The notes beneath the pieces were generated by a model. It was not told where the DNA came from. It saw only the letters and a list, made by a program, of their open reading frames with translations, and searched no databases. Positions 404 through 48,423 of a DNA stretch of 51,876 nucleotides are shown here, one piece after another. The position numbers and the translations under genes were made by a program. Each line of letters starts with the position of its first letter. Within the stretch, counting starts at the first letter, position 1. This stretch comes from Pirellulales bacterium (lineage in GTDB: Bacteria; Planctomycetota; Planctomycetia; Pirellulales; S012-138), in contig JALCBR010000023.1 in assembly GCA_028066245.1 (NCBI GenBank), positions 1 to 51,876 on the forward strand, read 5' to 3'.

Positions 404-1555
404 CTAGGACTCGCGCAGGGCAGATACGATCTCCGCACGGGCGGCCGTCCAAGCCGGAACAATACCAGCGATGATCCCGGTGATCACGGCAACAAGGCAT
501 CCGGTTGCTGCCAGTCCCAATGTCGGTGCAAAGTTGATGACCACCGCCTCCGCGCCCACCGCCAGCCGAGTCACCTTTAGCACGAGCATCGCAGCGCCAA
601 CGCCGAGTATGCCACCGATTGTGGCCAGAGTTGCGCTTTCGCTGAGCACCAGCCAGAATACACGGCCTGAGGTGAAGCCCAGCGTCTGCAACACGGCGTG
701 TTCTTTGATGCGATCCTGAACGGACATGATGGTGGTGGTTGCCACGAGTGCCAACACAAGTCCGACGCACGCGAACCCGAGATATTGAGACATGTCGATC
801 AGTTGTGTCAGGTCGCCCAAGCTCTTGGTTTGAAACACTCCTTTGGCGCGCGTGTCGGTCTGTTTTGGACCAGACATCAACACGCTGTCAATCTCGCGGC
901 TTTTCTCGCCAGCGTCCACGTTTGGTTCCAGCAAGACTTCTAACTGTGTGACCAATCCATCCATGTTGGCACCAGGCCGGCGCTGCAACATTTCCAAGTG
1001 TGTGTAGATGTAGTGTTCTTCCGCAGGATCCTCCGCGGTATAGATCCCTGCGACACGGACCTCCACGCTGTTTTCTGTCCCCATGCTGAACGATTGACCG
1101 ACTGTGATCCCGCGGCGTTCCGCGACCGCTTGACCTACAACAGCAGCATCCTGAAACGTCTCGAAGTCACTCCATGAGCCGTTAACGAGTTTAAAATCCC
1201 GGATGGATTTCAGTTTCTTCGGCGGCAAGCCGTAGAAGACAATGACGTCCAGGCTGGCGCGGCAGTTGTTGGTCAACACGGAGATCGGAACAACTTCACG
1301 GATGCCGGGAAGTTCCGCGATCCGAAGTTCGTAGTCTTCTGGCAACAAGCTTGTTGCCGGGCAAAACTTGTTGGCTTGAAACACAATGAGAGAGCTTTTG
1401 GCCTCTTGCCGGCGGCGGAGATCATTCATTCCTTCCTGAATGGCGCCGGTGAAGCAAAAGACAAACAACGCCACCGCCGCACCGCTCACTGTAAGAATGG
1501 TTCTTGAGCGATGTCGCCAAAGGGTTTTTGCGATGAACGGAATGAATTTCAGCAT
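404..1555 (-). CDS. FtsX-type ABC transporter permease
   Basis: A 383-residue inner-membrane permease of the MacB/FtsX/DevC type. It has one N-terminal membrane helix (TILTVSGAAVALFVFCFTGA), a large periplasmic domain of about 220 residues, and three C-terminal helices with the usual cytoplasmic stretch (VQDRIKEHAVLQTLGF) that contacts the ATPase. I chose the ATG at 1555 (MLKFIPFIAKTLWRHRSR), which starts 13 bases after the ATPase stop. An upstream ATG at 1597 would overlap the ATPase gene and add an unlikely polar leader. The periplasmic domain has two cysteines (KFCPATS, NNCRAS), matching the cysteine-rich flavour of the cluster. It is the last gene of the leftward export cluster. The substrate is unknown. 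Confidence 0.88.
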   Translation of the reverse strand: MLKFIPFIAKTLWRHRSRTILTVSGAAVALFVFCFTGAIQEGMNDLRRRQEAKSSLIVFQANKFCPATSLLPEDYELRIAELPGIREVVPISVLTNNCRASLDVIVFYGLPPKKLKSIRDFKLVNGSWSDFETFQDAAVVGQAVAERRGITVGQSFSMGTENSVEVRVAGIYTAEDPAEEHYIYTHLEMLQRRPGANMDGLVTQLEVLLEPNVDAGEKSREIDSVLMSGPKQTDTRAKGVFQTKSLGDLTQLIDMSQYLGFACVGLVLALVATTTIMSVQDRIKEHAVLQTLGFTSGRVFWLVLSESATLATIGGILGVGAAMLVLKVTRLAVGAEAVVINFAPTLGLAATGCLVAVITGIIAGIVPAWTAARAEIVSALRES

Positions 1556-1568
1556 GGATTGCTTTGAG

Positions 1569-2297
1569 CTAGAGAGTGGCGACTCCGGGCGGCGCATCGC
1601 CCGGTTCCGCAGCGGAGGTTTCCGTCAACTCAATCAGCTTTCCGTGATCGAGCGTCAATTGCCTGCCAGCGACTACGGCAGCCTCACGGTCATGTGTGAC
1701 CATCAGTAACGTTATGTCCAATTCAGCGTTCAAACGTTTGAGCAGATGCAAGATTTGATCGCTGGTTTCCGGGTCAAGATCGCCGGTCGGTTCATCGGCG
1801 ACGACGACTTTGGGATGCGCGACGATGGCCCTGGCAATGCCGACGCGCTGCTCCTGACCGCCGGAAAGCTGTCGCGGGTAATGCCCGGCTCGGTCCGTGA
1901 GGTCGACGGCTTGCAGCGCGACATTCACGCGGCGTCTTCTTTCGCTGCGCCCCATCGGCAGCAACAGCAGCGGAAGTTCCACATTCTCATAGGCGGTGAG
2001 GACGGGAATCAGGTTGTGCGTTTGAAAGACATAACCAATGTTGGCGGCGCGCCACTTCGCGGTCGCAGCGCGCGACATCCGTGGCACGTCAGCTCCGTCG
2101 ACCAGGATGCTCCCGCCATCGGGCTTGTCGATGCCAGCAATCAGGTTCAACAGCGTTGATTTCCCCGTTCCGCTGGCTCCCATCAGAGAGAGGAACTCGC
2201 CTGCGGCGATATCAAGAGAAACACCATCGAGCGGCGTGATTGTCTCTCCGCCTTTGTGGTAGCGTTTGGTTACGTTGTTGATCTGTACCAAAGTCAT
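1569..2297 (-). CDS. ABC transporter ATP-binding protein, LolD/MacB/DevA type
   Basis: A 242-residue ATPase subunit that powers the neighbouring FtsX-type permeases. Walker A is GASGTGKST (about residues 40-48), the Q-loop lies in VFQTHNLIP, the signature is [14 protein letters not shown], Walker B is [12 protein letters not shown], and the switch histidine is in VTHDREA. The [14 protein letters not shown] pattern and the Q-loop context are typical of the LolD/MacB/FtsE group rather than importers. It lies between the HlyD-type adaptor gene and the second permease in the same orientation, so the three probably work as one tripartite export pump. The ATG at 2297 directly precedes the normal family N-terminus. 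Confidence 0.95.
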
Positions 2298-2361
2298 GGT
2301 CTTGGAGGTCGTAAAATTTGCCTGTGATGGAAAACTGCAATTGCCTGACCGGTACCGTCAC

Positions 2362-3960
2362 TCACAACGAAGTTGCGGGTGAGCCTGTCTTGCTCATTCT
2401 CCTGAGTGAAACATCTGTCGATTCCGGCGGCTCGTCACCAATCACGCGAATGCGGTCTCCGTCCTCCAGTCCTTCAAATCCCGTCGCCAAGATTCGGCTG
2501 GCGCGGTTGAGCCCGGACTGCACTTCAACCATGCCGTCAGGCGTTTCGGTTCCCAGCTTTATCGGGATCTTGCGGGCGCGTGCTTCCGACTGATCCGCCA
2601 GCCAAACGAAAGGTGATTCTCCACCACGATCTTGAACGAGATTTCGTGGAACGTAGATTCGTTCTTCCTCCGAAAGTTCTTGTGTGGCCGACGACTCCAT
2701 GGCTAGGAACGACGCGTCAACCAGCATCTCCGGCTTGAAGTACTCTGGCACATCTGACAGCGCGACCTTAACTTCCAATGTGTTCTTCTGGATGTCAGCT
2801 TCAGAACTGATATACAGCACGTGACCCGAGATTGGTTTGGAGATCGATGCATTGTTAATTAGCACCTCCTGCCCCAACTTCACCTTGGGGACATCGTCAA
2901 AGCGCACATCAACCCGTACTTGTAGTCTGTCGGGCCGATACATGGTGATAACGGAATTTGAAGCATGGCCGCCGGAATTAGTCGTGCCGCCGACTTGCGC
3001 GCCCAGGTGTCCCTTCAAGTGATAGACACGTCCGTCAACGGGCGCATAGACAGTCATGCGATCCAATCGCAATTGCGATTCATCGACGGCAACCTCTGCC
3101 TGGCAAACACGGGCCTCGGCAGCTTTGACCTGGGCCGCGGCCTGATCCCGCGCCGCGATCTCGTCAACCAGCATATCCAAGAGCGCTCGCAGCGCATCTC
3201 GCCGCTTCACCAACGCAGCGTGTTCAGCTTCCCAGGAAGTTTTGCGTTCCCGCAGCGCTTCCACGACGGCGATCGCCGAGGCCAGGTCTGCTTCGGCCTT
3301 TTCAATCAAGCGGCCCACAACGGCGCCCCGGGCGGCTTCTTTACCGTCGTAGTTCCGTTGGGCGAATTCACGTTGAGCCTCAGCTTGACGGATTTCATAC
3401 GGGAGGTTCTTCAACTGCGTGGCGATCTTGGCAAGTTCGGCCTCGGCCTGGCGCAGGGGTGCTTCCAGATGGACCGGCTGCTCAAAACGAGTCAGCGCCG
3501 CGGCGTAGCCCGCCTCAGCGTTGTCCAGTTCCGCTTTGCGCAGCCTCAGATCTGCCTCCGCGGAAGCCAACGCCAGTTGAGCGTCATTGTTAATCAGTTT
3601 AGCGACCGGGTCGCCGGCTTTGAGCTCCTGGTCATCCACGACCAAGAGTTCTTTGATCACTCCCTCCGCCAGAGCGGGCACATGAATCGGTGTGGGACGA
3701 GGTTCAATCCACCCAGAGGATTCAAACAATTTTGTCCCAGCGGGTTCAGCAGTCGCCCGAGTGAGTTGGACCGGGACGACCGTCACCTCTGTCGGCGGAA
3801 AGATCAGATCCCAGGCTGACCAACCTAAAATGGCGGCACTGGCGACCAAGAGAGCGATGGGAATCAAGTACCGCGACAGCCAGTGACCGTCGGAGCGCGG
3901 CGACTGCGCCGCGCTGCCGCGATCAATGGCAAGCTGTTTGAGGTCAACTTGGGTTTGCAT
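2362..3960 (-). CDS. HlyD-family periplasmic adaptor (membrane fusion protein)
   Basis: A 532-residue adaptor anchored by one N-terminal membrane helix (about residues 30-50, LIPIALLVASAAILGWSAWD). A first lipoyl/barrel half follows (ELKAGDPVAKL), then a long alanine/glutamate-rich helical hairpin of about 180 residues with heptad character, then the second half (MTVYAPVDGRVYHLKG) and a beta-barrel/proximal domain (GTETPDGMVEVQSGL). This is the layout of HlyD/DevB/MacA adaptors, which bridge an inner-membrane ABC pump to the outer envelope. It sits 26 bases downstream of the lipoprotein gene and upstream of the ATPase. The hairpin is longer than in MacA, closer to DevB-like proteins. Confidence 0.92.
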   Translation of the reverse strand: MQTQVDLKQLAIDRGSAAQSPRSDGHWLSRYLIPIALLVASAAILGWSAWDLIFPPTEVTVVPVQLTRATAEPAGTKLFESSGWIEPRPTPIHVPALAEGVIKELLVVDDQELKAGDPVAKLINNDAQLALASAEADLRLRKAELDNAEAGYAAALTRFEQPVHLEAPLRQAEAELAKIATQLKNLPYEIRQAEAQREFAQRNYDGKEAARGAVVGRLIEKAEADLASAIAVVEALRERKTSWEAEHAALVKRRDALRALLDMLVDEIAARDQAAAQVKAAEARVCQAEVAVDESQLRLDRMTVYAPVDGRVYHLKGHLGAQVGGTTNSGGHASNSVITMYRPDRLQVRVDVRFDDVPKVKLGQEVLINNASISKPISGHVLYISSEADIQKNTLEVKVALSDVPEYFKPEMLVDASFLAMESSATQELSEEERIYVPRNLVQDRGGESPFVWLADQSEARARKIPIKLGTETPDGMVEVQSGLNRASRILATGFEGLEDGDRIRVIGDEPPESTDVSLRRMSKTGSPATSL

Positions 3961-3986
3961 ACGAACGCTCGCAATCGTTTGGACGG

Positions 3987-4505
3987 TTACTCACCGCCGG
4001 ATTCCTTACGGACATAGATTCCGTTTGCCAAGACACGGAGGTTGCCGCCTTCGTCACGTTGGACGGTTCCCTCAACCACAACTGTTTCCAGTTCCTTCAA
4101 GCCGAACGCCGTGCGGGCATCCGCGTTGACAGTCTTTCCCTCGTCGCTGATCTTCACAGACGCCATGAATTCCGAAAGGTCGCCCGAGCAGCAGTAATCC
4201 CAAGGCGTTGGACAGTTGTGATCATCAGCGCAAGGCAGTTTGGACATGTCAGTCAACGTGAAGGACGCTCGTCCTTCCACCCATGGGTCTGGGCTTCCGC
4301 CGATGCGACCAACCAGCGTGATCTCTTCGCCATCGTTGTCGGCTTTAAAAGCATCGTGAATGTTGATGGGGTTTTCCGGCTCCGCAGCTAGAAAGTATTG
4401 TGAGACATCCACATTGGACGCGATTGTGGTCTCTTGTGGGTCGTCGCCGCACCCGGCTGCAAACATTGCGGACATCAAGCACGCGATCAAAAAAGTACGC
4501 TTCAT
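3987..4505 (-). CDS. Cysteine-containing lipoprotein in ABC export cluster
   Basis: A 172-residue lipoprotein. The N-terminus MKRTFLIACLMSAMFAAGC is a type II signal with the lipobox AAGC. The mature part contains short beta-strand-like runs (EEITLVGRIGG, ETVVVEGTVQRD) suggesting a small OB-like beta barrel. In the middle is a distinctive cysteine cluster, PCADDHNCPTPWDYCC, which could bind a metal or form disulfides. The gene lies between a permease and the HlyD-type adaptor and is cotranscribed by position, so it is probably an accessory subunit or substrate-handling factor of that exporter. I do not recognise a named family, and the OB-fold idea is inference from strand pattern only. Confidence 0.85.
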   Translation of the reverse strand: MKRTFLIACLMSAMFAAGCGDDPQETTIASNVDVSQYFLAAEPENPINIHDAFKADNDGEEITLVGRIGGSPDPWVEGRASFTLTDMSKLPCADDHNCPTPWDYCCSGDLSEFMASVKISDEGKTVNADARTAFGLKELETVVVEGTVQRDEGGNLRVLANGIYVRKESGGE

Positions 4506-4636
4506 TTCAAAGTCCTTTCTTGCGAAACATCCCTGGTAGTCATCACCGCGCCGTTCCGTAACGCGTTGTTCTGATGGTGAATTGTGGTCCGTTGCCTCTT
4601 CTCGATCTCGTTTCTCTGCGGTGTGGATCGGTCTTG

Positions 4637-5827
4637 TCAGGCCGACTTCAAGCCTTCCACAATCGGCTTCCGCAAACCGCGGATGGCTGCTGGGATAGTG
4701 CCTAATAAGCCCAACAGAAACCCCACACCGCAGCCGATAAGGATGGCGACGTTATCAATCTGCAGATGAAATGCTCCCATCGTGAAGCGAATGGCCGCCC
4801 CGTTGATCAACAGCAATGACAAGCCTGTGGCCGTCAAACTGGCTGCCGCGGCCAGCAACAGTCCTTCTTGCAACAAGCTGAGCAAGATAGCCGTCCGGCC
4901 AAAGCCAATGGTTTGTAACGTCGAGAGTTCTCGAATTCGGCCGATCACTGCCCCGTACATCGTATTGAGTCCTGCCAAAACGCCAGCACCGGCGACCAAT
5001 GCCACAACGAGCCAAGAGAGATACATAATTGGCGCGTAATCTTTCTGCAAAGCCGCGTAGTAGTTGTCTTCGCTCATGGCTTGTAGTTCCAAATCAAGGC
5101 GGTCCTGGCAAAACTCCTCTAGGTTCGCTGACTCTCCGTCAGGTCCCCAAGCGAGCGCTACCAGGCTGAGATCTTGCCGCTTCATGGCTTGCTGCAATTC
5201 CTGTAGATCACACCAGATTTCCGATTCGAATGCGGAACCAGCGGACGAGAAGACCCCGCTCACTCGCCAGGCGCGGCCTTCCATTTCGATAGAGGATCCC
5301 ACAGTGAGTTCCTCTTCACGGACACCAAGCTTGGTGGCGGCCAATCGTCCGACGATGACCTCACCCAACTGTGGCCAATCTCCGGTTTCCAACTCGACGC
5401 GCCTTCGTACGAGCAAGACGCCAGGGGTCACCCCACGGACGAGCCCGAGTGATTTAACATCGCGTGCATCGCCTTCACGATCGGGAAATCCAATTTCTGT
5501 TCCCAAGTACAACTCCGGCGAAACGGCTTTCTTGCCGTAACGCACGGCGACACCTGGAACGCTCGCCGGAACCAAGTCGCTGGTTCTCATCGCAATGGAT
5601 GAGTATTCCAGGTTGGCGCCCATGCCTTGTGAATAGACGACGGCCGTGTTCTTGTCCCCACTGACCACCAGCGATTTTGTCAGTCCGCGAATGAAACCCA
5701 CTACGACGAAGACCATAAGAATCACCGTCGTCAGGCCGACAAACGTCAAGCCTGTACGCAGCGGTCGGCGGAACAAGTTCCGTACGGCGTACTCCCAGGG
5801 AAGTCGACGGAAGAGCATGTGCAACAC
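4637..5827 (-). CDS. FtsX-type ABC transporter permease (first of two)
   Basis: A 396-residue permease of the same architecture as the one at 404-1555. It has an N-terminal helix (TGLTFVGLTTVILMVFVVVG), a periplasmic domain (about residues 50-270), and three C-terminal helices, with RIRELSTLQTIGFGRTAIL as the cytoplasmic coupling segment. Two different permeases with one ATPase imply a heterodimeric transmembrane unit, as in LolCDE, rather than the homodimer of MacB. The stop is 131 bases upstream of the lipoprotein gene. The start MLHMLFRRLPWEYAVRNLFRR gives the typical short basic cytoplasmic N-terminus. Confidence 0.9.
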   Translation of the reverse strand: MLHMLFRRLPWEYAVRNLFRRPLRTGLTFVGLTTVILMVFVVVGFIRGLTKSLVVSGDKNTAVVYSQGMGANLEYSSIAMRTSDLVPASVPGVAVRYGKKAVSPELYLGTEIGFPDREGDARDVKSLGLVRGVTPGVLLVRRRVELETGDWPQLGEVIVGRLAATKLGVREEELTVGSSIEMEGRAWRVSGVFSSAGSAFESEIWCDLQELQQAMKRQDLSLVALAWGPDGESANLEEFCQDRLDLELQAMSEDNYYAALQKDYAPIMYLSWLVVALVAGAGVLAGLNTMYGAVIGRIRELSTLQTIGFGRTAILLSLLQEGLLLAAAASLTATGLSLLLINGAAIRFTMGAFHLQIDNVAILIGCGVGFLLGLLGTIPAAIRGLRKPIVEGLKSA

Positions 5828-38151: not shown

Positions 38152-39381
38152 ATGACTCGCAGACCCTTTCAGGCGCTACTCCTCACACTGCTCGCCGTGA
38201 CCGCACTGTCTAGCGGAGGCTGCCAGTGGTTTCGACAGATGCTGAACCCGCGTCCGCAGTTGATTGTGGATGAAAACCCCAACTTCAGCCAGGTCGCCAA
38301 CATTGTCAATCAAAACTCCGCCCGAGTTGTCTCGCTGCAATCCAACAGCGCGCGGATCGGCTCATCCCAAATGCCGGCGACGCTGAATGCCAACTTGGCA
38401 CTACGGCGCGATCGCCGCTTCCGGCTGAAGGCGGACTTTGCACTCAGTGGTACCGAAGTGGACCTGGGAAGCAATGACGATCTGTTCTGGGTTTGGATAC
38501 GTCGCGGCGATCCCAAGGCGTTGTACTTTTGCCGACACGACCAGTTTCACCAGTCCAATGCGCAGTCAATTCTTCCAGTACAAACGGATTGGCTGATCGA
38601 AGCTTTCGGGTTGACGACGTTTGACCCCAACCAGAACTACCTGGGCCCGGAACCGGTCGGCAGGAATCGCCTGCGCCTGACGAGCTTGGTTCAGACGCCT
38701 CAAGGGCCAATGAGCAAAGTCACAGTGGTCGATGCTCGGTACGGCGATGTGCTGGAACAACATCTGTATGACGGGAACCAGCAGTTGGTAGCCAGCGCTC
38801 TCACGAGTGACCACAGGGGATATGCCTTGCAAGACAACACACAGGTTTACTTGCCGCACGAAGTTCAACTTGAGTTTCCGAAGACCAACATGACGTTAAC
38901 GATCTCCGTCTCAAGCTATGAAATCAACCAGATTGGCGCGGACGCCAACCTGGCGCTGTGGAAGATGCCAAACATCCCGGGATATCCACTGGTCGATTTG
39001 GCTGACCCCAATCTCAGGCTGACGCCCATCGCCGGCCCATTCCCAGCGACCGGGCAGCAACAACCCGGAGCCCAGCCCAGCGGTGCACAGCAGTACGGAG
39101 CACAATACGGCGGCGTCTCGCCTGTCAGCTATCCCAGCGGTGCCTCGCAGGGCTTCCGGCCGCCCGGTGATACGTTTCCCGGAGCCAACCCTTCGGAAAC
39201 TTCAGGCGGTCATACGCGCGACGATTGGAGTAGTCCGGTCTCAGATGGTGGACTTTCCGGCAGTGCGTTCACGTCTGACAGCGTAGGTCCGGTTGGTTCA
39301 ACATTAACCGGGCAGTCCAATCACCGCGAGACAATCGTCTCACCGCCACAAAGTTATGAGCCCCAGCGGGTGCTGCGGTGA
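38152..39381 (+). CDS. LolA/LolB-like envelope lipoprotein with Gly/Gln-rich tail
   Basis: A 409-residue lipoprotein with signal FQALLLTLLAVTALSSGGC. Residues about 40-290 are long antiparallel strands (LNANLALRRDRRFRLKADF; VDLGSNDDLFWVWIRRGD; SKVTVVDARYGDVLEQHLYD), the pattern of the half-barrel shared by LolA, LolB and DUF4292 lipoproteins, so a lipid-handling role is possible but inferred. The last 110 residues are low-complexity (QQPGAQPSGAQQYGAQYGG). I chose the ATG at 38152 because the signal peptide begins there; ATG 38125 is an alternative. Its final 113 bases overlap the antisense EF-hand gene. Confidence 0.78.
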   Translation: MTRRPFQALLLTLLAVTALSSGGCQWFRQMLNPRPQLIVDENPNFSQVANIVNQNSARVVSLQSNSARIGSSQMPATLNANLALRRDRRFRLKADFALSGTEVDLGSNDDLFWVWIRRGDPKALYFCRHDQFHQSNAQSILPVQTDWLIEAFGLTTFDPNQNYLGPEPVGRNRLRLTSLVQTPQGPMSKVTVVDARYGDVLEQHLYDGNQQLVASALTSDHRGYALQDNTQVYLPHEVQLEFPKTNMTLTISVSSYEINQIGADANLALWKMPNIPGYPLVDLADPNLRLTPIAGPFPATGQQQPGAQPSGAQQYGAQYGGVSPVSYPSGASQGFRPPGDTFPGANPSETSGGHTRDDWSSPVSDGGLSGSAFTSDSVGPVGSTLTGQSNHRETIVSPPQSYEPQRVLR

Positions 39382-41200
39382 ACGGAGCATTCCAAGATTG
39401 ACTAAACTCGCCGGCGGCGCGAGCTTCTTCCTGATCGACAAGGCCGTCATCATTGGTGTCGAGCATTTTGAATTGTTCATCGGACCCAAGGAACTCGCGA
39501 CGGCTGACGTCTCCATCATCGTTGGTATCCATGGCTGCAAACCAACGGAGTGATTCCTCGTTCGTTGTGTCAACATTGACTGAACCATCGGCTCGGCGGA
39601 CTTCCACACTGATAGAAGTGGGTAACTCGCTGTATTGAATGGTCCCGTTCCCGTCTGCATCAAGTGACATGAGCCGGTCACCGGCGGATTGCATTTCGCG
39701 AGCCGTGATCCGCCCGTCACCGTTGATGTCCAATGCCGAGAAAACGGAACGTTCTTCACTCCGCACCGTGATGGTGATCTCCGTCAGCCGAGCCGCCTGA
39801 CTCCACGCCAGCGCAGTTTCGATCTCATCCGCCACCAGCATCTTGTTGGCATTGGCATCCAGAACCGAGAATCGATCACCCGCGGTAAGTGGATTGACGC
39901 TCGCCTCTTCGACATCCAAATACCCATCCTGATTTGCGTCAAATCGGCGGATGAACGACTTGGCTGCCTGCTGCGCGGCCTCCATTCCGTCAGCGTCTGC
40001 TGATCGGAACGTCAAACGCGAGCCCGAGATGTCAAAAGTCGCCTCTTCGAGAGCAGAGGATGACTCCTCAATTGGCATCAAGAGTGAGAGCGAGGAAAGC
40101 ACATGGAGACCGGCAGGGCGATGATCGCTCTCGCCAAGGTTGACGTTGATAATCAAATGCGGCGCGATTTCGCCAAGGCGCTCGACTTCCTTCGTACGCA
40201 AGTAGCCATCTCCACTCAAATCCAACAGGTTGAACAGGTCCGGATCAAGCGGAAAGCTGGCTGCGGAAAGCCCTCCGTCTAAGTAGTATCGCTCATCGAG
40301 TTCATAGGAGACAGTATTCCAGTTGAGCAAATCCGTGACATGCATGGCCAACCGCGGGGCGACTTCGCGCCCGGATGTATTGGTCGCCATTTGCGAAGGC
40401 AGGATATCTCGCAATCGAACCACGTCATCATCGTCCGTGTCATGGCGGCGGAGGAGAGCTTCTACAGTGTGAGCTTCCTCTTGTGACAAGTGACCGTCAC
40501 GATTGGTATCTATTGATCGCCACCAGCGATCCAACACGGTGCGAGTAGCGCTGCTGTCAATCGCCACTGTGGCGGCGGTGACTTCCGCATCGCCACCTGT
40601 GGTGTCCGCGCTGATATAAGCACGGACTTCCTCTGCATCGGCGAGTGTGTTTCCGTTGGAGTCCCATTGTTCGATCTGCGACGGCAAGTCCATGTCCGAC
40701 GCAGGCGGTTGATTCATTCTCAACCCCAGGAACCGCGCGTCTTGCAAAGCTTGTTTCCAGGTCAGCGGCTCTGCGCCATCTGCAATTTGCAGCAGACGGT
40801 CGATCAAGCCTTCCAACGCAGTTTGGTAAGGCATTCCGTCAATCGAGATGACCAATTCGACGATGGCAGGTCCCTGCGGCGTAAGAAAGAGGAACCGTTC
40901 TGTGGCTTTGGTCAGGTCGAATGGTTTGGCAGTAGTTTTTGCAGTCTGGTTGCCGGATTGTGAGCTGGCGTTGACGAGGTCGGTGCCGCCGCCGGTCGCT
41001 TGAGGAGATTGGTGTGCGGAAGTCTCGCCAAAGTTTGGAGATTCTGTTGAGTTTTGCTTCTCGAACGGCTGCTTCGGTTTTTCGCTTCCTTGCCCATGGA
41101 TCGATTGTGTGCGTTTCTGTGGAGGAGAATCTTCCCCACAGCCAGTCAGGAAAGCCAGGAACAGGAAAGCCAGGAACAGCAGCTTGCCGAAAGTAAACAT
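39269..41200 (-). CDS. EF-hand lipoprotein with about ten calcium-binding loops
   Basis: A 643-residue lipoprotein. The signal FGKLLFLAFLFLAFLTGC ends in the lipobox LTGC. After a Ser/Gln-rich linker, EF-hand loops recur: WDSNGNTLADAEE (weak), DTNRDGHLSQEE, DTDDDDVVRLRD, DLSGDGYLRTKE, DANQDGYLDVEE, DANANKMLVADE, DINGDGRITARE, DADGNGTIQYSE, DTNDDGDVSRRE and DTNDDGLVDQEE. Probably a calcium-binding envelope protein. I chose the ATG at 41200, where the signal starts; the frame opens at 41368 inside the upstream gene. It follows the DUF1549 gene by 125 bases. The last 48 or so residues after the final EF-hand lie mostly in the antisense overlap. Confidence 0.88.
   Translation of the reverse strand: MFTFGKLLFLAFLFLAFLTGCGEDSPPQKRTQSIHGQGSEKPKQPFEKQNSTESPNFGETSAHQSPQATGGGTDLVNASSQSGNQTAKTTAKPFDLTKATERFLFLTPQGPAIVELVISIDGMPYQTALEGLIDRLLQIADGAEPLTWKQALQDARFLGLRMNQPPASDMDLPSQIEQWDSNGNTLADAEEVRAYISADTTGGDAEVTAATVAIDSSATRTVLDRWWRSIDTNRDGHLSQEEAHTVEALLRRHDTDDDDVVRLRDILPSQMATNTSGREVAPRLAMHVTDLLNWNTVSYELDERYYLDGGLSAASFPLDPDLFNLLDLSGDGYLRTKEVERLGEIAPHLIINVNLGESDHRPAGLHVLSSLSLLMPIEESSSALEEATFDISGSRLTFRSADADGMEAAQQAAKSFIRRFDANQDGYLDVEEASVNPLTAGDRFSVLDANANKMLVADEIETALAWSQAARLTEITITVRSEERSVFSALDINGDGRITAREMQSAGDRLMSLDADGNGTIQYSELPTSISVEVRRADGSVNVDTTNEESLRWFAAMDTNDDGDVSRREFLGSDEQFKMLDTNDDGLVDQEEARAAGEFSQSWNAPFTAAPAGAHNFVAVRRLSRGDWTARLMLNQPDLRCQT
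41147..41176 (-). repeat. 15-bp tandem duplication in a signal peptide
   Basis: The unit CAGGAAAGCCAGGAA (plus strand) occurs twice back to back (41147-41161 and 41162-41176). In the EF-hand lipoprotein it encodes LFLAF-LFLAF, so the duplication lengthens the hydrophobic core of the signal peptide in frame. Confidence 0.9.
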
Positions 41201-41325
41201 CTGTGGAACGGGCGAAAGCACCCCGTCCAACCCGAAACTTGTCAACCGGCTGGCGAGAGAGGAATGCCGGCCGATGGCGTCTTCCGCAATTGGTTGATCG
41301 CACATCAGTTTATCCGCCCACCGCT

Positions 41326-42933
41326 TCAATGATTGAAGGTAAACTCCGCGCTGTTGACGATGGCCCACAGGACATCACCAAGCGCCTGTTCTTGGCTTCC
41401 TGTTGCGCCGCCGGAAGAAACATACTCAGCAAATTTGGAACGCTCTGTCTCGTAGGGACGCCTTGAAAGCGTTGCCAAGAAAAGAATCTCCACCCGCTGA
41501 CCATCGCTGAGAAATGGCGCTGTTAGCCCGGCCAACGTCCCCGTTGCCCCCAACTCTGTGCCACTAGTCACGGTTTGCCCGTTCATGATTGAAAGCGCTT
41601 GGGGGATGCCGGAACGGTACTCATCCGCGCCTGCTCCCACACCACGAAAACGGGCCACGAACTCTGCCCGGGCGGGATCGCGCTGAAACAAGATTGCGTT
41701 CTCATCGGGAGATGGTTCGTTGATGTCCGCTCGCAACCGCGTGGCCATCAATAACGCATCATACAGTTGTTCTGCGGAAAGATTCTTGATCGCCATCCGG
41801 GCAAAGCGCGATGTCATCTCATACGTGTCGTCCGTTTCAGACCGGCTGGTCAATTGATATGCCTGCGAATTTGCCAGCGTGCGGTAGAGCTCTCTCAAGT
41901 CATATTCGGAGGCCACGAAAGAGTCTGCCAGGTCCTGCAACAACTGGGCATGTTGCGGCGTCTCCACAAGATCCAGATTATCGATGGGCTCTGCCAGCGG
42001 CCGTCCAAACAACTGTGCCCAAACGCGATTGACGGTTGCCTTGGCGAAATACGGATTACTGTTGGATGCCAGCCAGATGGCCAACTCGCGCCGGCGGTTG
42101 CTCACATTCGCGTCCGGCTGTTGTCCGCCCAAAAACGTCGGCGGAACAACCGTCTCGGTCTCTGGCAACGTCACCTCACCTTCATCAACGTCGCGCAGCC
42201 TGGCGCCGCCTAGCATGGGGATATCGCCTATCATGTTGGGCGCATCCGGCTGCACACGGGCAAAGAACGCGGCGTACCCCCAAAACTCCTCCTGCTTCCA
42301 ATCGGCAAAAGGATGATCGTGGCATTGGGCGCAACCGATTTGTACGCCCAAGAAGATGTCGGCCGTACTCGCAGCGATCTTTTCTGGCATGACATCCAGC
42401 GACGTATAGAACACCGCAGGCCCAGCCTCGTCACCTTCCCCATCAGCAACCAACAAATCCGCAACCAGGTTGTCATACCGCAAGTTGCTAGCGAATCGCT
42501 CACGCAGCCATTCGTGGAAAATCCCCTGATCTCCACCCAATCCAAACGGGTCCTCTTCCTCAGGCAGGAGGAAGCCGACCCAGGTGTTCGCCAGGTGGCT
42601 GGCATGGCGCGGACTGGCAAGCAAGCGTTCGATTCGCCGCCGCCGCTTGTCTGGTTTGGTGTCTGCTAGGAAGGAACGGACGTCAGAAACACGGGGAAGC
42701 GTGCCAGTCAAATCCAATGTCACCCGCCGCAAGAATTCGACGTCAGTCGCGTTATCGGCAGGTGTGATCCCAGCCTCTGACCAAGATTGTGACAGCAATT
42801 GGTCAATCCGTCGGGACATAGCTCCGCTGACCCGATCATCTGGGCGACTGTCTTGCCCTGTCGCGGCCTCGTCGATTCCAATCGTCGCCAGGCCCGCAAC
42901 AATTGCAGTGCAACCATACAGAAAGGTCCGCAT
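41326..42933 (-). CDS. DUF1549/DUF1553 planctomycete protein
   Basis: A 535-residue exported protein (leader RTFLYGCTAIVAGLATIG). DUF1549 covers about residues 40-230: EFLRRVTLDLTGTLPRVSDV, DNLVADLLVADG and the hallmark IGCAQCHDHPFADWKQEEFW, whose CAQCH could bind c-type haem. DUF1553 follows: NSNPYFAKATVNRVWAQLFG, DLRELYRTLANSQAYQLTSR, and a C-terminal NGQTVTSG and VEILFLATLSRRPYETE. The family is greatly expanded in planctomycetes and usually adjoins a DUF1501 gene. Here there is none and no extra cytochrome domain; an EF-hand lipoprotein gene follows instead. The function is unproven. Confidence 0.92.
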   Translation of the reverse strand: MRTFLYGCTAIVAGLATIGIDEAATGQDSRPDDRVSGAMSRRIDQLLSQSWSEAGITPADNATDVEFLRRVTLDLTGTLPRVSDVRSFLADTKPDKRRRRIERLLASPRHASHLANTWVGFLLPEEEDPFGLGGDQGIFHEWLRERFASNLRYDNLVADLLVADGEGDEAGPAVFYTSLDVMPEKIAASTADIFLGVQIGCAQCHDHPFADWKQEEFWGYAAFFARVQPDAPNMIGDIPMLGGARLRDVDEGEVTLPETETVVPPTFLGGQQPDANVSNRRRELAIWLASNSNPYFAKATVNRVWAQLFGRPLAEPIDNLDLVETPQHAQLLQDLADSFVASEYDLRELYRTLANSQAYQLTSRSETDDTYEMTSRFARMAIKNLSAEQLYDALLMATRLRADINEPSPDENAILFQRDPARAEFVARFRGVGAGADEYRSGIPQALSIMNGQTVTSGTELGATGTLAGLTAPFLSDGQRVEILFLATLSRRPYETERSKFAEYVSSGGATGSQEQALGDVLWAIVNSAEFTFNH

Positions 42934-44418: not shown

Positions 44419-47400
44419 ATGGCCTTTGATTCTTCCGCTGACGCCAGCCAATTGCCGCCGCCGTCGGATGGTCTCAACAGGCCGACAAACGCGATCACGA
44501 ATCCAGCGTTGCGCTCCCGTCTGCAGCAGTTGACTGCGGATGAATCCGAGGTTCTCGAGCAGCTTGTCGGTCCCTCTGCGCAGTCCTCGACCGTTGCGAA
44601 CGTGTACGGAACCGGCCTCCAGCGCGAAGTCAGGGCTTGGCGGAATCTGTTGCGGGACTACGGTCTTACAGACCAGGCAGCCGGTGCAGATCAGCTCTTG
44701 ATCGAGTTCGGCAGAGACCGAGCAACTGATTGGTGCAAGGAAAACCTGGAGTGTCCACTGCCAAGTGATCCAGACGTCCTCTTGCGACGTCTGGCCCGCA
44801 CCACATCGCTCCAGCTCAGTTTGCCGGCCAACCACGACGCTCAACATCTTGAAGTTCAATTCCAGGCGGTTAGAGATCGCCTGCGAAGTGAACTGCTCAG
44901 AGTTCTTGAGCAGGTCCCTCCATCAGACGGCGCTCGGCAACGCTGGGTGAGTGCTTTGGTCGATCGAGCGGACGCCACACTGACTGCCATTGACGAAACC
45001 GCGCCTGACGCTGCCGCTTGGCAGTTGCGCGTCGTGTGGATGGACATCCAATGGCATCGCGATCACGTCGAGACCGATACCGGATCAGGACGGAGAAGAT
45101 TGAGCCGACGGCTCCGCAGACTGCGCGCAGAACGTCAGGAACGCCAGTTGCAATCAAAACTGGAGCAGAAGTTCAGCCCCAGAAACGTTGCACGATTTGA
45201 GCGGGCCATCTTTTGGCTCATTTTTTTCGTGCTCGGGCTGATCGTCGTGGAGTTTATGTTCGATTTGTCCGAGCGGACGCTTGTTGTCCTCCATGTCGCT
45301 GACGGGGTGATCTGTTGCGTCTTCTTATGGGAGTTTTTCTACAAGCTGGCACTGGTCGAAGAGAAGTGGCTTTGGTTCCGCCGTCATGCGCTGATCGATC
45401 TCTTACCATCGATCCCCTTTGGACTATTGACCATTGCAACTGCTTCACCAGCAAACTCTGTTCGCGCTGGCCGCGCCGTCCGCCTCGTGCGCGTCTCAAG
45501 ATTGGTTCGTTATGTTCGGATCTTGCGTCCGCTGGTGCGGATGATTCGAGCTTTTGGCTTTCTCGTGCGAGGTCTGGACCGGCTGGCCCGCAGCTATGGA
45601 CGGGTTCTCAATCGAAATATCATTCTGTTTCCCACGCGTGAGGAACGGCAGCGCGGCCGGGAAGAACAGGAAAGTCCACAATGGCAACTGCGTACGCGGC
45701 GCGTGGAGATTGAGACTCGTTGGCGCGAAACGCTGTCTCAAGCCGAGCCCGAACACCGCGACGAGATCGCAGCCGCTCGATTGGACGTTTTCGCCGAAGC
45801 TCTCCGACGCGAGAAACAGATCTCGCACGCAATCCGCGATATCTCCGATGAAGAAGCACCGCCTATTGGAGAAGTGCCTGCAGAGTTGGCGCTTAGGCGA
45901 ATGGCGTCCACAACACCTCAAGAAGTGAGGATGGTGTTGGGGGACGAGCTCACGCGCCGCGTGGCACGCATGGTGCGAACCTTTTCCTGGCCTCCATTGC
46001 GCTGGCTGCCGGTCTTTTCGGCATTCGCGCCACGAATTTCCCGCCGGATGTCTGACGAGGAAGTGGTGGCCGCGGCGGCGCATTCCGCTTCCCAGCCGTT
46101 GGGAAAGTACTACGCTCGCTATCTGTGGTTTGGCGACCTCTACGGCACCGTTACCCCATCGCAGTTTCTTGATCGGCTGGGGGGAATGTTGGTCAAGGCC
46201 TCCTTCCGGCCCACATACCGTCTGGCGCTCTTTGGCGGGCTCTTCCTACTCACGCAGCAGCTGATCGGCTTGATCCCGCTGCTAAAGAACATTCGCGATG
46301 CGTTAGCTCAGATTGTCGGCACGCCGCTTGTCATCTTAGGAGGAGTTTGCGTGCTTGTGCTGGGTGTCGGGTGGTGGCTCAAGCGGCTGGCTCGCGAGGC
46401 AACGGAGTTCTACGAGCGGGCCGCCCAGGCACAGTTTCTCGGCCTGACGGAGGATTTCCGCAGCAGAAACGTGGACCCAGACTCAGAGATCATTCACGAG
46501 CGGGTGCTGAGATTTGAGTGGAACCTGATGGCCAATGGTAACGAACCGCTACTGGACCGCGCAGCGCGGATCGACGAGTTCCGTCAGCGAGTGCACATGT
46601 CATTGGTCGGCAACAATTCAGAACGCGGTAAGTCCTTCAACTTGCTGGAACGCACAGCTTTAATCTATCGCGACTCGTTGGACGGCGCGATGTTCGCCGA
46701 TACGGACACGCGTGCAACTGGGCAGTTGCTGGGAAACTTGTCCGTTCAACAAGCATTGCAGCTTTCTTCACGTGTAACACGGCGCGACAAGAAATCCTTG
46801 CGGGTTCTCGATCTCGAACGGCAGAAATCTCTCTTTGGCGGGCCGTACCTGTGGTTCAATTTCATCTCGCGATCGATCGCCCATTCCGCGGCGGTCCTGA
46901 TCGTGGACTACAACAAAAACGCAATCCCTCTGGCCGAGCTTGACTTGGCTTCGCCCACTGAGCGGCAACGGTACGAAGCCTGGGTGTCCGCGGAAAGCGA
47001 ACTTTTCAACACCGATGATGTGCCCTCAAGCTGGGAGTATTCAACGACCGCGTTCACGGCGTTGCATTTCCTTGACGATATGGAAGCACGTGACGCTGAC
47101 GTAGCTCGCCGATTTGGCGAAAATGTGCGTGACAAGATGCGCCGAGACCGGGGGTTACTGTTCCGTCGAGTGTTTGGCACCTACCCGCTCCACCGTCGGC
47201 AAAAAGAGCTACGCTTGCTCAACGTGTACGTGCTGTACGACAAATGGCTCGGTGGTGGCAAGGCGGTTTTTTTGCCCTTGGTTTTCTTCTTCCGAGGTTG
47301 CAAGGCAGTCGCCCGATCATGCCGGTGGGTCATCAAGGCGATCAAGGAGGTCCGCAATCCTAACCGTCGCGCGCGGTATGATGACGCTGCTGACGCGGAC

Positions 47401-48423
47401 TTTGCGACCGCTGTGCGGAAGATTGATCGCATGCGAGGGCCGATCACGCGGGCCACAATCACATTACGCGCGAAGTTTGATCCTGCCTATGTCGGCATTC
47501 CGCTCCCCGGCGAAACGACTGACAAGGCGATAGCTCCGCAGTTTGAAGAGGATCTGAGATTCCTCGACGCCGACCCGGAGTTTGTTCGCCAGCTTCGCGA
47601 TTTCCGCCGCCGCGCCGTCAGAGACATCAGGCGTTTGCAAGGATTAATCGATGCCGGACTGTTGGCGCAGCTGGAACAGGTCGCGAAAGTTCCCGCCGGA
47701 TCGTTTCAAACGGATGAGCATCGTCGAGCGGCGGCAATTGTCTATGCGGCGGACTATGAGGGAATCCGCACTCTGATCTCCGGCATGGACGTGTTGGAAC
47801 GTGTTGCCACGGCTGCTCCGGCCATGCACCTGCCAGCGGCAAAAACGTGGTTCGCCTGGCGGCGAAAGTCATTGTTCAAACGCTGGTGGAAACAAATTGG
47901 ACAGCGGTTGACGCCGACCGGGTCAGAAGACGATTCGCAAACTTTCCCGCAAGCAGCCAACGCAGAAGACTTGGCAGATGGGCCTGCGGCGCACTCGTCC
48001 TCGGTAGTTTCAACATCTCCACAAAGCACCAGCTCTGAAGGGGGCAAACGCGCCGACGTCGCACGTCAGGCAGCTTGGCGTGCCATTCACAACAACCTGG
48101 ATGGTGCAGGATTGGCCATGCTCGCTTGGGGAAAACACGGAGCACACGCGGAAGGCATTGGCCGACAACGCTTGGCCAATATCCTCCGTCACCCGAACCG
48201 GATTAGCGAGCACCTCGTCGCGTTGCGAACAATTCAAACGTTGGCCATGTTGGATATCGTCCATTATCGTTCACACGTGTTTCGCTTGGGCGAATATGCG
48301 GCGACGGAGGGCACTGCTGACGACCTACTCATCTGGAGAGGATCACCGGGAACGGACGAAGCCGATCAGGCAAGGACTGCGCTGATGGAAGCCGGCCAAG
48401 AATCGCATGAGGTACTCGAGTGA
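44419..48423 (+). CDS. Giant voltage-sensor-domain protein without a recognisable pore
   Basis: A 1334-residue protein. After a 260-residue helical N-terminus comes a four-helix voltage sensor: S1 about 263-283; S2 about 287-312 with D295, F302, E305 and K309; S3 with D327 (HALIDLLPSIPF); and S4 with arginines at 349, 352, 355, 358, 361, 364, 367 and 370, then 374 and 377. The D-x6-F-x2-E spacing and S3 aspartate match the gating charge-transfer centre of Kv channels. No S5-filter-S6 with TxGYG follows. A second membrane hairpin lies at about 602-620 and 632-654. The C-terminal 680 residues are mostly charged helices with no family I recognise. Start is the first ATG after the isomerase gene. 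Confidence 0.85.
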   Translation: MAFDSSADASQLPPPSDGLNRPTNAITNPALRSRLQQLTADESEVLEQLVGPSAQSSTVANVYGTGLQREVRAWRNLLRDYGLTDQAAGADQLLIEFGRDRATDWCKENLECPLPSDPDVLLRRLARTTSLQLSLPANHDAQHLEVQFQAVRDRLRSELLRVLEQVPPSDGARQRWVSALVDRADATLTAIDETAPDAAAWQLRVVWMDIQWHRDHVETDTGSGRRRLSRRLRRLRAERQERQLQSKLEQKFSPRNVARFERAIFWLIFFVLGLIVVEFMFDLSERTLVVLHVADGVICCVFLWEFFYKLALVEEKWLWFRRHALIDLLPSIPFGLLTIATASPANSVRAGRAVRLVRVSRLVRYVRILRPLVRMIRAFGFLVRGLDRLARSYGRVLNRNIILFPTREERQRGREEQESPQWQLRTRRVEIETRWRETLSQAEPEHRDEIAAARLDVFAEALRREKQISHAIRDISDEEAPPIGEVPAELALRRMASTTPQEVRMVLGDELTRRVARMVRTFSWPPLRWLPVFSAFAPRISRRMSDEEVVAAAAHSASQPLGKYYARYLWFGDLYGTVTPSQFLDRLGGMLVKASFRPTYRLALFGGLFLLTQQLIGLIPLLKNIRDALAQIVGTPLVILGGVCVLVLGVGWWLKRLAREATEFYERAAQAQFLGLTEDFRSRNVDPDSEIIHERVLRFEWNLMANGNEPLLDRAARIDEFRQRVHMSLVGNNSERGKSFNLLERTALIYRDSLDGAMFADTDTRATGQLLGNLSVQQALQLSSRVTRRDKKSLRVLDLERQKSLFGGPYLWFNFISRSIAHSAAVLIVDYNKNAIPLAELDLASPTERQRYEAWVSAESELFNTDDVPSSWEYSTTAFTALHFLDDMEARDADVARRFGENVRDKMRRDRGLLFRRVFGTYPLHRRQKELRLLNVYVLYDKWLGGGKAVFLPLVFFFRGCKAVARSCRWVIKAIKEVRNPNRRARYDDAADADFATAVRKIDRMRGPITRATITLRAKFDPAYVGIPLPGETTDKAIAPQFEEDLRFLDADPEFVRQLRDFRRRAVRDIRRLQGLIDAGLLAQLEQVAKVPAGSFQTDEHRRAAAIVYAADYEGIRTLISGMDVLERVATAAPAMHLPAAKTWFAWRRKSLFKRWWKQIGQRLTPTGSEDDSQTFPQAANAEDLADGPAAHSSSVVSTSPQSTSSEGGKRADVARQAAWRAIHNNLDGAGLAMLAWGKHGAHAEGIGRQRLANILRHPNRISEHLVALRTIQTLAMLDIVHYRSHVFRLGEYAATEGTADDLLIWRGSPGTDEADQARTALMEAGQESHEVLE

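Follow-up and report, generated by a model that had tools for sequence, protein, structure and literature searches.

A 2023 review holds that a K+, Na+ or Ca2+ pore goes with every voltage-sensor domain (VSD) known from prokaryotes, and that neither bacteria nor archaea have yielded evidence of Hv1-type proton channels (PMC10377628). The pore-less VSD proteins known in eukaryotes include, besides Hv1 and the voltage-sensing phosphatases, TMEM266 (HVRP1), an animal protein of unknown function that proved to be a working voltage sensor (PMC6392501), and SLC9C1, the sperm Na+/H+ exchanger, whose VSD controls a partner within the same chain that is not a channel (PMC13095418). A search of mainly open-access published literature found nothing specific on planctomycete or pore-less bacterial VSDs and no account of the family described here. 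The planctomycete protein described here shares with the prokaryotic voltage-gated K+ and Na+ channels (KvAP and the planctomycete TVGYG and TGGFG channels) the S1-S4 fold, the D/E-F-E residues of S2, the S3 aspartate and the S4 arginines at i+3 spacing, whereas it lacks their S5-P-S6 pore and filter and has about 950 extra residues after S4. A pore-less VSD is common to this protein, Hv1 and TMEM266, although TMEM266 is an animal protein with no reported relative of the planctomycete cytoplasmic domain. SLC9C1 has a transporter and a cyclic-nucleotide-binding domain, neither of which was seen here. The voltage-sensing phosphatases (Ci-VSP/TPTE), in which a VSD is likewise followed by a cytoplasmic module, offer a model for the possible working of the protein; however, the 1334 residues contain no CX5R motif, as had already been noticed, Foldseek and Pfam gave no PTEN-like fold, and the planctomycete protein has an extra transmembrane hairpin. 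With moderate confidence, we regard it as a putative voltage-to-cytoplasm transducer.

The gene lies at positions 44419-48423 on the forward strand of the window, the whole 51,876-nucleotide stretch of a Pirellulales contig that was analysed. It is an open reading frame, uninterrupted from ATG to stop, present as a single copy in the host genome, and its 1334-residue product could be aligned with 95 homologues across the Planctomycetota. The N-terminal cytoplasmic region (residues 1-222; 44419-45084) shows low conservation and is helical where modelled (AlphaFold2 helices at residues 138-216). The product contains a genuine S1-S4 VSD. The Pfam Ion_trans profile matches residues 260-376 (E=4.5e-5) with its positions 4-122 of 241, i.e. 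with its S1-S4 part only; the score of 23.2 is just under the gathering threshold of 25 bits, and 19 of 20 homologues match the same profile, with a best E-value of 8.4e-10. When a profile of 43 homologous VSDs was compared to the PDB, only channel VSDs were matched, first Kv3.1 (E=2.2e-7) and then Nav, Kv2.1, HCN, Kv4 and KvAP, with the best-scoring alignments in S2-S4; Hv1 was not among the top matches. An AlphaFold2 model of residues 135-1334, built without templates (mean pLDDT 84.5, pTM 0.83), was matched by Foldseek to the isolated KvAP sensor 1ors_C (probability 1.00, TM 0.66 normalised to the target) and to 2kyh (probability 0.99). Foldseek matches of the full model other than KvAP had TM values of about 0.05-0.1 and were disregarded. 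Both the profile comparison and the structure prediction, which had been proposed as checks on the first reading of the sequence, thus came out in its favour, with the limit that the outer half of S4 (about 345-364) is of low confidence in the model (block pLDDT 55-64).

Hydropathy and the model place S1 at residues 260-282, S2 at 285-312 and S3 at 316-342, S4 being weakly hydrophobic. In the model, S1 and its cytoplasmic lead-in form one long helix (residues 223-280; 45085-45258), also delimited by hydropathy and column counts; E261 and E278 are acidic in most members. S2 (45271-45354) carries D295, F302 and E305, the residues of the gating-charge transfer centre, and S3 (45364-45444) carries D327 together with P333 in the motif IDLLPSIPFG. 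The original prediction had picked out these same four residues, and the profile alignment bears it out: D295, F302 and E305 stand opposite the E, F and E of Kv S2 (302 opposite the phenylalanine, 305 opposite the inner glutamate; Kv3.1 and Kv1.2 were aligned), and 327 stands opposite the S3 aspartate. Among the 95 distinct aligned members, residue 295 is always D, 305 is an acid throughout (73 E, 22 D), 302 is F in 68 and L in 27, and 327 is acidic (D or E) in 88. P333, R377 and D387 are invariant across the same alignment. These column counts show a predicted charge-transfer centre under strong purifying selection. S4 is followed by a helix with the motif RGLDRLARS..LNRN (residues 384-400; 45568-45618), at the position where S5 starts in channels; within it R384 is kept in 86 and N398 in 80 of the 95 members.

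S4 itself (residues 349-377; 45463-45549) has the eight arginines at exact three-residue spacing that had been reported for it (349, 352, 355, 358, 361, 364, 367 and 370), and the two further ones are R374 and R377. An i+3 run of at least eight arginines occurred in just 2 of 20,000 shuffles of the same protein, which has 158 arginines among its 1334 residues. Across the 95 members, R or K makes up 74.7% of the register 349+3k but just 0.8% and 0.4% of the two remaining registers, which is the pattern of a putative gating-charge ladder kept by selection. The ladder is not uniformly maintained. R349 is kept in just 26 of the 95 members, the inner R358, R367 and R377 being best conserved, and 16 of the 56 members placed in a tree have at most four of the eight arginines in the register. 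Fifteen of these fall in a single clade of 17 rows, from Isosphaeraceae-type planctomycetes, in which the outer S4 arginines have been lost, while D295, E305 and D327 are kept in all 16 reduced members. Since these members have so few register arginines, full voltage sensitivity is presumably dispensable for the role of the domain there. Full ladders of seven or eight arginines are found to either side of the midpoint root of the tree, which serves for drawing only; we infer that the full sensor is probably ancestral and that the ladder was reduced secondarily. With respect to orthologues, the original prediction therefore stood in part: the acids at 295, 305 and 327 and the S4 register are conserved among the 95 members, but one clade shows the loss of S4 arginines that it had itself named as evidence against a sensor.

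Because that clade has lost its outer arginines, a passive role has to be weighed, in which the VSD fold would serve as an anchor in the membrane or as a scaffold for protein interactions and would do no physiological voltage sensing, as with S1-S4 in many TRP channels. The poor retention of R349 relative to the inner arginines would also fit such a role. We nevertheless consider it unlikely, as the S2 and S3 acids are invariant even where arginines have gone, the i+3 register is strict, with less than 1% basic residues in the other registers, and full ladders are found on both sides of the tree.

The second membrane hairpin, originally placed at about 602-654, was recovered by hydropathy at about 600-655 and is taken here, from hydropathy, column counts and loop lengths, as residues 597-655 (46207-46383). 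It consists of TM5 (about 599-620), a short outer loop and TM6 (about 633-655, with G641, C644, G651 and W653). The loop is variable, with lengths of 11-57 residues (15-18 residues in 44 of 59 members) and no conservation of sequence. No PDB homologue of residues 597-655 was found. One could regard this hairpin as S5/S6-like, giving 4+2 = 6 transmembrane segments after a 220-residue insertion, so that oligomers of the protein would form a pore lacking a K+/Na+ filter and the protein would be a voltage-gated channel of a non-canonical kind. The six segments are in the right order and TM6 is glycine-rich and strongly conserved at G641, G651 and W653; however, the outer loop is usually too short for a re-entrant P-loop and is unconserved, and a profile comparison of the hairpin with the S5-P-S6 of real channels gave no similarity (hhalign probability 0.4%), on which ground the assignment as S5-S6 was rejected. 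Such a pore is improbable.

As originally noted, there is no selectivity filter either: TxGYG, GYG, GFG and TLES motifs are absent from the 1334-residue protein, and no K+ or Na+ filter of the TxGYG, TGGFG or TLESW type was found in any of the 95 aligned members. As a control, the same VSD profile was run on 13 genomes, where it found eight other VSDs outside the family, among them an ordinary K+ channel of the host genome (on contig C83); all eight carry TVGYGD or TGGFGD after S4. A six-segment voltage-gated cation channel has a pore with a filter after S4, whereas here the filter motif is missing throughout the family, the hairpin has no S5-S6 homology and the Ion_trans match ends at profile position 122 of 241. 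Judged by these comparisons, the protein is shown to have no canonical pore. Its nearest pore-bearing relatives by VSD score are TGGFG channels of 404-424 residues, which share the post-S4 motif WRGMDKL and may possibly be the source of the planctomycete pore-less VSD. Two of these planctomycete six-segment channels, L187 (G142:C233) and L188 (G365:C3), combine the unusual filter TGGFGD with a long arginine-rich S4 and WRGMDKL after it.

The original prediction had left two functions side by side, a voltage sensor coupled to an output and a proton channel; a real VSD and the lack of a canonical pore, both part of that prediction, are supported, and the proton channel has lost ground. That the protein would be a bacterial Hv1-like voltage-gated proton channel, with the VSD as the proton path and the remainder serving assembly or regulation, is very unlikely: the pore-less VSD, whose charge-transfer centre is intact, and the long helices, which might form dimers, would suit it, but in 59 members no acidic residue stands anywhere in S1 262-277, the region that corresponds to the mid-S1 site of the Hv1 selectivity aspartate, and this speaks against it. 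In addition, Hv1 is absent from the top VSD-profile matches and is not known to have a cytoplasmic part comparable to the very large one of some 950 residues found here.

The putative output part begins after the hairpin. The original prediction of an unknown output module is supported. Conservation is densest in residues 735-1060 (46621-47598), an all-helical cytoplasmic domain in the AlphaFold2 model, with 29 invariant columns among 25 divergent members and the motifs GPYLWF, DYNxxAIP, FGTxPLH and RKIxRMRxP. The whole of residues 655-1334 was modelled as all-helical (pLDDT 84.2, pTM 0.85), and a further conserved helical segment near the C-terminus (residues 1214-1310; 48058-48348) stands out as separate tblastn blocks of 42-53% identity with a pLDDT above 90. 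A PDB fold search with residues 655-1334 gave no match (best E-value 0.03; TM at most 0.17 among the 50 best), nor did a viral fold library searched with the C-terminal domain (best E-value 0.34); the best hits of both searches had TM values of about 0.1. PDB sequence searches found no relatives of residues 735-1060, and Pfam, NCBIfam and PADLOC contained no family for the cytoplasmic part; the PADLOC search likewise gave no match to anti-phage defence profiles. The clustered invariant basic residues R1000, K1001, R1004, R1006 and R1017 hint at an anionic ligand, for which the RKIxRMRxP-type motif is possibly the site. Apart from fragments at contig ends, the domain was met only in fusion with the VSD. 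Its profile picked up long ORFs that contain the VSD, those fragments, and otherwise a single stretch full of stops (E=7e-4), so that by this survey no VSD-less copies were seen and the predicted fusion is shown to be obligate.

In the putative voltage-to-cytoplasm transducer, depolarisation or hyperpolarisation would drive S4 past F302, on a path between D295 and E305/D327. From S4 the displacement would be relayed, via the conserved helix that follows it (R377, R384, D387) and via the hairpin in the membrane, to the cytoplasmic domain, whose binding or activity would change. More tentatively, the proteins might make up a family of direct voltage transducers that is widespread among planctomycetes, and be the first bacterial proteins with a VSD that drives a cytoplasmic effector of new fold and not a pore, in a membrane-voltage signalling pathway analogous to the voltage-sensing phosphatases; this broader proposal is plausible, and we hold it with some reserve. 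The statement that all known prokaryotic VSDs are accompanied by pores (PMC10377628) is contradicted by this family, in which a conserved, pore-less bacterial VSD is joined to a new domain. The family is an evolutionary parallel to the voltage-sensing phosphatases, TMEM266 and SLC9C1 and provides concrete, testable proteins with which to ask whether bacteria can convert membrane potential into signals inside the cell without any flow of ions. Its build, a pore-less VSD joined to a large cytoplasmic domain, suggests that some bacteria may read membrane voltage directly into a response.

The distribution of the family across the Planctomycetota is patchy. With the cytoplasmic-domain profile it was detected in 56 of the 392 genomes sampled, the stretch broken by stops mentioned above being additional to these. 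Among 398 genomes sampled from the host's own class, the whole protein has matches in 47. In 12 of them the match is to the VSD only, and those that were read are ordinary channels; the remaining 35 genomes contain the family. Cultured species with a homologue include Tautonia sociabilis and Aquisphaera insulae. When 84,980 species genomes were scanned with motifs from the cytoplasmic domain, 52 loci were recovered; almost all of them carry the label Planctomycetota or uncultured bacterium. Three family records are labelled otherwise, namely L092 (Myxococcales), L124 (Nealsonbacteria) and L126 (Deltaproteobacteria), and these may reflect transfers, or else mislabelled bins or other labelling errors. 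One of them, L092, clusters with L096 on a long branch (1.76). In L120 (parts of 878 and 212 amino acids) and in L104 (near the C-terminus) the gene is split in two frames, by assembly error or decay.

No gene neighbour is shared family-wide. The neighbours that recur are housekeeping genes restricted to particular lineages, coding for M18/M19 peptidases, a MutY-type glycosylase, a TrmE-like GTPase, glycogen phosphorylase, PGI and a sulfatase; since the surroundings vary across the family in this way, the gene seems to function either by itself or together with products of genes at other loci. In the window itself, the reverse strand codes for a 699-residue protein, predicted to be secreted and lipoprotein-like, with five stretches of EF-hand type (39269-41368; Pfam EF-hand_7, E=9e-26) and for a 535-residue DUF1549/DUF1553 (PSCyt2-PSD1) protein (41326-42933), which is shorter than expected for such planctomycete proteins. 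Elsewhere in the window, also on the reverse strand, a HlyD-type membrane-fusion protein is encoded between two MacB/FtsX permeases (404-5827), apparently as one export operon.
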